Notes under the pieces: generated by a model
The model's database searches: none
Seen by the model: only the letters and a program-made list of their open reading frames with translations
What the model was told of the DNA's origin: nothing
Origin: Pyrinomonas methylaliphatogenes
GTDB taxonomy: Bacteria > Acidobacteriota > Blastocatellia > Pyrinomonadales > Pyrinomonadaceae
DNA length: 64,000 nucleotides
NCBI RefSeq assembly: GCF_000820845.2
Contig: NZ_CBXV010000007.1
Location: forward strand, 124,082-188,081
Direction: 5' to 3'
Program-made: the position numbers and the translations under genes
Shown here: positions 17,549 to 64,000 of the stretch, one piece after another
Position numbering within the stretch: the stretch's first letter is position 1
How the letters are laid out: each line of letters opens with the position of its first letter

Positions 17549-17590
17549 TCGACTCTCTCCTAGAAATCGCATGATTCCAGAAATACGAAA

Positions 17591-17620
17591 ACTCCTTTTC
17601 AAGCGCGCTTGAAAAGGAGT
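17591..17620 (-). terminator. Intrinsic terminator of the crcB fluoride riboswitch
   Basis: A perfect 30-base palindrome (arm ACTCCTTTTCAAGCG) is followed on the minus strand by TTTTCGTATTT. Its first arm shares ACTCC with the 3' end of the aptamer, so ligand-bound aptamer folding competes with termination. Confidence 0.85.
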
Positions 17621-17671
17621 CATCAATCTCGATCTGGCGACCGAGATGGTTATACGGCGAACTCCATCGCC
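17615..17671 (-). ncRNA. Fluoride riboswitch 1 (crcB motif)
   Basis: On the minus strand the aptamer opens with GGCGATGGAGTTCGCC. ATAACC follows, then a P3 stem-loop (ATCTCG pairing with CGAGAT), and it closes with TGATGACTCC. The order GGnGATGG-stem, TAACC, stem, TGATGnCTCC is the fluoride (crcB) riboswitch signature. It lies between a promoter and crcB, the family's classic target gene. Confidence 0.92.
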
Positions 17672-23013: not shown

Positions 23014-23053
23014 AGACTCACGATTGGCGATATGAATCGCCAATCGTGAGTCT
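23014..23053 (+). terminator. Perfect 18-bp hairpin after orphan tip 2
   Basis: AGACTCACGATTGGCGAT (23014-23031) is followed by the loop ATGA and its exact complement (23036-23053), 23 bases past the tip stop. There is no U-run. It mirrors the hairpin after the Rhs gene. Confidence 0.65.
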
Positions 23054-62756: not shown

Positions 62757-62987
62757 CTATAGGCGCGGCAATACTCCCTGTAGCGTTAGCAGGAAGATCT
62801 GGACGAAAGAGCTGGAAGTCTGAGCTGATCCGGTACCCATTTCTCCAGTATATCCCGTCCCCATCTCTCCTGCGGCAGTGGTTGTGGGAGAGGATGTATA
62901 GCCTGTGCCCATTTCGCCTGCGAAAGTAGAGAGGGTGAAAGCACAGGCGAGAAGGGCGATGGCGAAAAGTTGACGCAAAAATCTCAT
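62757..62987 (-). CDS. Secreted 76-residue peptide with GEMGTGYT repeats
   Basis: ATG 62987 has AGGAGA seven bases upstream. A strong signal peptide (RFLRQLFAIALLACAFTLST, cleavage near TFA/GEMG) is followed by the repeat GEMGTGYT at about 24-31 and 40-47 and GEMGTG at 48-53. The C-terminal end is hydrophobic (SSFVQIFLLTLQGVLPRL). Three near-identical units after a Sec signal look like a processed signal or antimicrobial peptide precursor, or a small surface protein. It is divergent from the TPR gene, with a long palindrome between them. Confidence 0.6.
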   Translation of the reverse strand: MRFLRQLFAIALLACAFTLSTFAGEMGTGYTSSPTTTAAGEMGTGYTGEMGTGSAQTSSSFVQIFLLTLQGVLPRL

Positions 62988-63017
62988 TTCCAATCTCCTG
63001 AAACTTATAAAGTTATA

Positions 63018-63053
63018 GTCAAACAGCCGAACCGATCGGTTGGACAGTTTGAC
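63018..63053. promoter_or_regulatory. 36-bp imperfect palindrome between peptide and TPR genes
   Basis: GTCAAAC at one end is matched by GTTTGAC at the other, with AACCGATCGGTT (63030-63041) at the centre. The dyad axis falls between 63035 and 63036. Position and symmetry fit an operator for a dimeric regulator acting on both divergent genes. Confidence 0.65.
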
Positions 63054-63132
63054 CTATGTTGCTGGGATGTAAGCATGATAGCATCTGTGTTAGAAGGTTG
63101 TACAAGAAAATTTTGATAGGGAACCTCATCTT

Positions 63133-64000
63133 ATGTTGAAGACGAAAGCCGTGAGAGGGAACAGTGCAGCGGGTAGTTCAGATGCCCAAATCCTTCTACG
63201 GTGTGCGCGGGCAAAGGAGCTTGAAGAGATAGGTAATTACGAAGCGGCTGCGCGGGTGCTCGGTGAGATATGGCCTGGTTTTGATGAAGATCTTGCGCTT
63301 GATGGATTGAACCAGATAACAATAGGAGAAGTATTGCTTCGCGTCGGCAGCTTGACTGGATGGTTGGGCAGCGCGCGTCGCATTAAAGGAGCGCAGGAAA
63401 GGGCAAAAGATCTAATAACCAGAGGATTACTATGCTTTGATTGCCTCGGTGATGCAGAGAAGATCTTCGAGGCTCAGCTTGAACTAGCTTGGTGTTATTG
63501 GCGGGAAGGCTCGTTCAATGAAGCGCGCACAATATTGCAAGCAGCTCTTAGCTCGATTGAGTCTGTGGGTAATCATGAGTTAAAAGCGGTTGCTCTCATC
63601 CGTAGTGCCGAGGTTGAACGTTCTGCTGGTTCTTATTTGGCCGCCCTTGAATTTTTGAATAGAGCGAAACATCTGGTTGATTGTTGCAGCGATTTGGTTA
63701 AAGGGAGATTCCATAATACGTTTGCTATCGTTCTGCGTAACTTGGGTGATCTTGAGCGGAGATCTGACTATGTAGATCGAGCTCTGATAGAGTACGCCGC
63801 AGCTAGCTACTATTTCGAGCGAGCCGGACATCTGCGCTACTGTGCGCGCGTTGAGAACAACATCGGTTTCCTGCTCTTCAAGCTCAAGCGATTTGAGGAG
63901 TCAAGCTTGCACTTGGAGCGGGCGCGCCGTCTATTCAAGAGTCTGCGCGATATCGGCAGTTTGGCTCAAGTCGATGAGACGCGCGCGCGCGCGTTGCTGG
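63133..64000 (+). CDS. TPR protein, N-terminal part (cut by window edge)
   Basis: The frame is open from ATG 63133 to the window end, 289 residues. Helical repeats of TPR type run through it: CARAKELEEIGNYEAAARVL, ELAWCYWREGSFNEARTILQ, RSAEVERSAGSYLAALEFLN, NTFAIVLRNLGDLERRSDYV and NNIGFLLFKLKRFEESSLHL. No N-terminal DNA-binding or kinase domain is present. Such long TPR arrays in related bacteria are often sensor parts of transcription regulators with a C-terminal HTH, but that end is outside the window. Codon use is less GC-rich at the start than toward the edge. Confidence 0.75.
   Translation, partial: MLKTKAVRGNSAAGSSDAQILLRCARAKELEEIGNYEAAARVLGEIWPGFDEDLALDGLNQITIGEVLLRVGSLTGWLGSARRIKGAQERAKDLITRGLLCFDCLGDAEKIFEAQLELAWCYWREGSFNEARTILQAALSSIESVGNHELKAVALIRSAEVERSAGSYLAALEFLNRAKHLVDCCSDLVKGRFHNTFAIVLRNLGDLERRSDYVDRALIEYAAASYYFERAGHLRYCARVENNIGFLLFKLKRFEESSLHLERARRLFKSLRDIGSLAQVDETRARALL

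Follow-up and report, generated by a model that had tools for sequence, protein, structure and literature searches.

Does a short gene for a secreted repeat peptide, lying head-to-head with the gene for a TPR protein, encode a signal that this protein reads? The locus stands at the end of the window (the whole stretch of 64,000 nucleotides that was analyzed), which is part of contig 7 of the genome of Pyrinomonas methylaliphatogenes K22 (3,788,560 bp in 16 contigs), a thermophilic soil acidobacterium (PMC4644332). A first-pass annotation had described a secreted peptide with three GEMGTG units divergent from a TPR protein, and the ORFs and units were found again in the sequence. The stretch given there includes the peptide gene and a palindrome between the genes, but it ends within the TPR gene. 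We consider it likely that the locus is the precursor-receptor pair of a peptide sensing system, and the two genes are named in that sense below. The hexapeptide copies, the private words of each pair, the conserved pairing, the predicted TPR fold, and the output domains all support this reading.

The proposed precursor and receptor genes of K22

The features of the locus are as follows, in window positions.

62757-62987, minus strand: precursor peptide gene, 76 aa from the ATG, stop codon included in the coordinates
62919-62987, minus strand: predicted Sec-type signal peptide, residues 1 to 23 (cut between ..TFA and G), with a basic N-terminus, a hydrophobic core, and an AxA-like site, by rule of thumb
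62901-62918, minus strand: hexapeptide copy 1, GEMGTG, at the predicted new N-terminus
62853-62870, minus strand: hexapeptide copy 2, GEMGTG
62829-62846, minus strand: hexapeptide copy 3, GEMGTG
62760-62810, minus strand: hydrophobic C-terminal segment, SFVQIFLLTLQGVLPRL, a counterpart of which ends nearly every relative's precursor
62994-62999, minus strand: precursor ribosome binding site, AGGAGA (across the intergenic regions, no 7-mer is commoner than AGGAGAA)
63018-63053, no strand: 36-bp palindrome (15 of 18 pairs match) within the precursor's predicted 5' UTR
63075-63080, minus strand: likely precursor -10, TGCTATCAT (TGc TATCAT, extended -10)
63096-63106, no strand: CTTGTACAACC, site of the TGCAAG..CTTGCA element, a weak, degenerate match assigned by position only
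63133-64000, plus strand: TPR receptor/regulator gene (777 aa), which runs off the window to the equivalent of position 65466

The precursor start lies 145 bp from that of the receptor, and a TTG two codons upstream of the ATG is a possible alternative start. In the precursor, MRFLRQLFAIALLACAFTLSTFA is followed at the predicted cleavage point by GEMGTGYT and further on by GEMGTGYTGEMGTGSA; its three GEMGTG units use differing synonymous codons.

A search for an HTH in the unseen part of the TPR protein had been suggested, and the complete receptor was found to contain both an AAA+ domain and a Fis-type HTH. By Pfam, TPRs occupy residues 20 to 400 approximately, the AAA+ domain residues 421 to 656 (Sigma54_activat, with its lid; E value, 1.6e-58), and the HTH residues 688 to 713 (HTH_8; E value, 2.5e-8).

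Conservation of the pair and of its peptide words

Homologues of the N-terminal TPR region were found in 64 of 119 genomes of the order, with at most 10 per genome and one in that of K22. We fetched 80 relatives' loci and read their complete regulators, and 81 loci enter the count. A small divergent gene encoding a signal peptide lies beside 76 of the 81 regulators, compared with 6 of 147 other ORFs at the same loci; the pairing rule called for a short ORF on the opposite strand, starting at most 300 bp upstream, with a signal peptide recognized by hydrophobicity and the AxA rule. The idea that the peptide gene is kept beside the TPR gene in relatives is thus borne out, and, with output domains present in the receptors, so is that of peptide plus TPR receptor as a module. 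Apart from the precursor gene, no neighbor is common to more than seven loci. The precursor is the only widely conserved neighbor, and therefore the precursor and receptor form a unit. Five receptors of family 1 (L114, L119, L128, L132, and L133) have no recognizable divergent precursor; possibly they are orphans or eavesdroppers, or their precursors were missed by the rule.

The receptor homologues are located in chromosomes of one bacterial family. A profile of both receptor families gave E values of 1e-43 to 1e-166 within that family, whereas outside it the same profile found just long or generic TPR proteins, mostly of 1,000 aa or more (E value, 1e-33 or weaker), in a scoring that took four first-look candidates per genome and may miss rare members. 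In one genome, a single contig (G107:C53; L212:3809-18230 and L213:7689-9528) carries four complete pairs in about 26 kb, each with its own word and with unrelated genes between them.

Within family 1, about 15 receptors have AAA+ plus HTH, about 28 have a receiver domain after the HTH, and nearly all the rest have the HTH alone, a split that was made by pattern and is approximate. The TPR domain of receptor family 2 (L139, L147, and L159 to L172) is 24 to 29% identical to that of family 1 and is joined to another C-terminal domain, which has no match in Pfam or the PDB. Judged by their domain content, the outputs of the TPR receptors are exchangeable. The family 2 domain (L139:1441-2964 and L159 to L172) is conserved over about 115 aa (..GSLAIV..RGDLAAI..GFYD.DFGIVCLE..ILGKIVGV) and looks, to the eye, S24/LexA-like. 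Family 2 precursors are also divergent and mostly carry DG(D/N/T/S)MG(A/G/N/S)GG, three of them standing beside one receptor. A third receptor group (L209 to L211) has divergent precursors of the GDG type (GDGxxPxGG), up to four per receptor. At L210:448-4258 (G042:C4), a 576-aa TPR receptor lies amid four precursors with the words GDGTIPTGG, GDGSIPTGG, GDGTTHTGG, and GDGTTHSGG; these near-identical words for one receptor possibly represent diversification in progress.

Precursors share a common plan of a signal peptide, a hexapeptide, a linker rich in Pro, Ser, and Thr, often one to three more copies, and a conserved hydrophobic C-terminal segment that ends near the stop codon. Their lengths are 51 to 97 aa in nearly all relatives, with one of 108 aa. 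In the relatives, the first hexapeptide starts with G, at or a few residues from the predicted cleavage site, and the consensus of 74 precursors is G - E/D/I - I/M - x - T/S - P/G, position 4 varying most. Exact internal repeats of at least 6 aa occur in 26 of 75 precursors (0.015 expected on shuffling). A majority of the precursors, however, lack a second copy identical over six residues, a point against peptide sensing. Identical first and second copies are seen in 6 of 9 and 7 of 12 precursors of the two largest clades, compared with 0.65 and 0.60 when partners are shuffled. The words differ among paralogues, such as GIIWTG, GIIHTE, GVIYTD, and GIMHTD in one of these clades and GETSTPPC, GETQSPPC, and GEIPSPPC in the other large clade, and copies are more alike within than between precursors (identity, 0.87 versus 0.605 and 0.854 versus 0.728; p, 5e-5). 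Exact copies diverge at 89 of 202 third codon positions versus 4 of 404 first and second positions; because these copies were picked for amino acid identity, the telling figure is the high third-position divergence. Since third positions have diverged and first and second positions hardly at all, the copies are old and have been kept alike as peptides, by selection on the peptide. Between precursor genes of related pairs, dN/dS is 0.17 to 0.49. The pattern of copies, codons, and dN/dS in these genes agrees with expectation for a hexapeptide that is itself the active product.

The same pattern bears on another explanation, in which the peptide serves, once secreted, as an effector such as a small antimicrobial or surface peptide, and the TPR protein does no more than regulate it, with some other ligand. 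Divergent regulator-target pairs are common, and the hydrophobic C-terminal segment could act on membranes. We nevertheless regard this as improbable because the copies within a precursor change together while the linkers drift and synonymous codons differ, because the precursor has no conserved neighbor for immunity, export, or modification, and because the TPR fold and its groove are conserved.

The intergenic region

The 36-bp dyad reported between the genes in the first-pass annotation exists. Four dyads of its kind occur in the 64 kb of the window and none per shuffled 64 kb, and therefore it is not a product of chance. Two other 36-bp dyads, at 17588-17623 and 23016-23051, have 16 of 18 pairs and are stronger. 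The proposed role of the palindrome as a shared operator did not stand, because it is absent in relatives: in the same-genus orthologue, in L058, and elsewhere in the set. It lies downstream of the likely precursor -10 and, as RNA, is able to form a hairpin (z, -2.0). The palindrome is probably not the shared operator but may be an RNA hairpin or a local operator.

What recurs instead are TGCAAG..CTTGCA elements and an extended -10, and some clades have dyads of their own. TGCAAN2-8TTGCA is present in 16 of 75 intergenic regions (0.2 expected) and TGnTA(T/A)nAT in 29 of 75 (1.1 expected). With the regions in peptide orientation, the TGCAAG/CTTGCA elements lie about 20 to 36 bp from the receptor start codon and in many cases form an inverted pair; they are followed by the extended -10 (TGcTATgATG) at about 50 to 80 bp from that codon. 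Furthermore, AAACCAG-N6-CTGGTTT occurs about 30 bp before the precursor start codon at 8 of 75 loci (L092, L100, L106, L113, and others), with none expected, and is a candidate clade-specific operator. Sigma-54 control of the K22 precursor was considered and set aside as improbable, as no -24/-12 site was found in the K22 intergenic region; the whole set contains two weak matches.

A hairpin in the 5' UTR, together with the poly-Pro runs of many precursors, would also suit a regulatory leader, that is, a short ORF acting on a downstream gene as an arrest peptide with Pro stretches or through an RNA hairpin. A leader for a conserved downstream gene was rejected since no widely conserved neighbor was found. 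We find a leader very hard to credit: the next downstream gene is not conserved, the hairpin is not conserved either, the repeats and the C-terminus are conserved right up to the stop codon, and the K22 precursor has no Pro runs, although many relatives' precursors do.

Receptor fold, proposed peptide sensing, and known systems

An AlphaFold2 model of the TPR domain of L057, the same-genus orthologue, built from a two-sequence alignment, has a mean pLDDT of 84. In VIA-align comparisons, its best match is LGN (Z, 30.6), the closest bacterial proteins are RapI (Z, 25.6 over 352 residues) and NprR (Z, 25.0), and the Rap-Phr and NprR-NprX peptide complexes score 22 to 24; such values indicate a shared fold rather than function because helical repeats reach high Z easily. 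The helices ahead of the TPRs superpose on RapI. Foldseek likewise placed LGN first, and Rap was not among the best 50 matches listed. In an alignment of 35 sequences of families 1 and 2, W47, G72, G79, Q88, R124, and A297 are invariant; Y122, N242, and N243 are nearly so, and W123 is strongly conserved across subfamilies. Counting from the canonical Gly8 and Gly15, we take W123/R124 to be TPR positions 12/13 and N242/N243 to be positions 5/6. In known TPRs, these positions face the ligand groove. Distances between hexapeptides correlate with those at predicted groove positions (r, 0.33; random TPR positions gave a mean of 0.25, with 2% as high), an apparent effect that is modest and confounded by co-inheritance.

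Peptide sensing at this locus would run as follows, each step of the mature peptide, from processing and import to binding and action between cells, being inferred. (i) Sec would export the precursor, and cleavage by signal peptidase would leave the first GEMGTG free at the newly made N-terminus. (ii) Proteases in the periplasm or outside would free the remaining copies. (iii) At about 550 Da, the hexapeptide could cross the outer membrane through pores and re-enter the cell by way of an oligopeptide ABC importer, for which the K22 genome encodes four candidate binding proteins (SBP_bac_5). (iv) In the cytoplasm it would bind the concave TPR groove, as suggested by the fold and by the conservation of groove residues among receptors whose outputs differ. 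(v) Binding would alter the DNA binding or ATPase state of the Fis HTH/AAA+ part, which would then act on transcription of the divergent precursor gene and of other targets.

Some points stand against peptide sensing. TPR arrays bind many partners, and LGN, the protein that the model matches best, is no receptor for pheromones. Simple processing of a pheromone leaves the conserved hydrophobic C-terminus unaccounted for, and in a cell with two membranes the peptide might be confined to the periplasm. The same pair could then act within one cell, where returning periplasmic fragments would let the TPR regulator read secretion or periplasmic proteolysis, as a self-monitor and not as communication. 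In a diderm, Sec delivers its substrates to the periplasm; the pairs have no linked gene for a dedicated outer-membrane exporter, and the conserved hydrophobic C-terminus could keep the precursor membrane-bound. However, the many private words per genome (up to 10 receptors) suit exclusive channels better, and hexapeptides are small enough for pores; we consider such self-monitoring unlikely, if less so than the effector.

The pairs look like an undescribed peptide signaling system across one large family. In the literature searched, with subscription journals and preprints largely outside it, no description of peptide signaling in Acidobacteriota was found. Sensing of genetically encoded, linear peptide pheromones by TPR receptors in the cytoplasm is attributed to Gram-positive bacteria (e.g., PMC7564271; PMC10075063). 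We lean slightly toward a wider proposal, that the family has a “language” of dozens of orthogonal pairs, each with its own hexapeptide word and with exchangeable outputs (Fis HTH, AAA+, receiver, and other), which evolved independently of the RRNPP systems of Firmicutes. If true, peptide-pheromone communication would extend to an abundant, poorly understood soil phylum, one would have to ask how peptides get out through two membranes and back again, and a stock of peptide switches, possibly orthogonal ones, would be available ready-made. Because the words are short and explicit, the hypothesis is testable with synthetic peptides.

Three known systems invite comparison. Sigma-54 activators (NtrC/NifA; Sigma54_activat plus HTH_8) share the AAA+ domain, lid, and Fis HTH with the K22 receptor, and rpoN is in the genome, but the K22 sensor is a TPR domain and its loop reads GSFTDA instead of GAFTGA. 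No AAA-type member has an intact GAFTGA loop, all having variants. Given this loop and the lack of AAA+ in most relatives, sigma-54 activation by the K22 receptor is doubtful, though rpoN is present. LGN/Pins and kinesin light chain, the top fold match and a weak sequence match, respectively, share the peptide-binding TPR superhelix, but they are eukaryotic scaffold and motor adaptors without DNA-binding output.

The RRNPP/RRNPPA systems of Firmicutes (Rap-Phr, NprR-NprX, PlcR-PapR, AloR-AloP, and AimR-AimP) also pair a small Sec precursor with an adjacent gene for a cytoplasmic TPR protein, and multicopy pheromone precursors are known among them (PMC9765709, PMC11343458), as in our pairs; the bacterial structures closest to our TPR model are Rap and NprR. 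Their five-point signature was applied in a scan that covered Firmicutes and viruses only (PMC10075063). The K22 precursor falls within its range of 10 to 100 aa beside the receptor gene, and the pair has the Sec signal peptide (rule based) and the TPR receptor (Pfam and model). In contrast, the 777-aa receptor exceeds the 250 to 500 aa of RRNPP_detector (PMC10075063), which only relatives with TPR and HTH alone approach (about 456 to 590 aa), and it has a C-terminal Fis HTH in place of an N-terminal HTH or the Rap three-helix bundle (phosphatase/anti-activator). Our pairs also differ in belonging to a diderm phylum, Acidobacteriota, in having a Fis HTH with or without AAA+ or a receiver domain, and in placing the hexapeptide at the signal-peptidase site, not at the C-terminus, which is a hydrophobic tail. 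No RRNPP chain was among PDB sequence matches up to an E value of 1, the matches being of fold alone. The likeness to Rap/Phr and Rgg/PlcR drawn in the first-pass annotation therefore holds for peptide plus TPR protein but not for the build of the receptors, with their C-terminal Fis-type HTH and, in some, AAA+ or receiver domains. Because size and domain order do not fit and no sequence relation was detected, we do not file the K22 receptor as RRNPP. In its mode of action the K22 pair most likely resembles peptide sensing by Rap/Phr or PlcR/PapR, though it does not appear to belong to that family.
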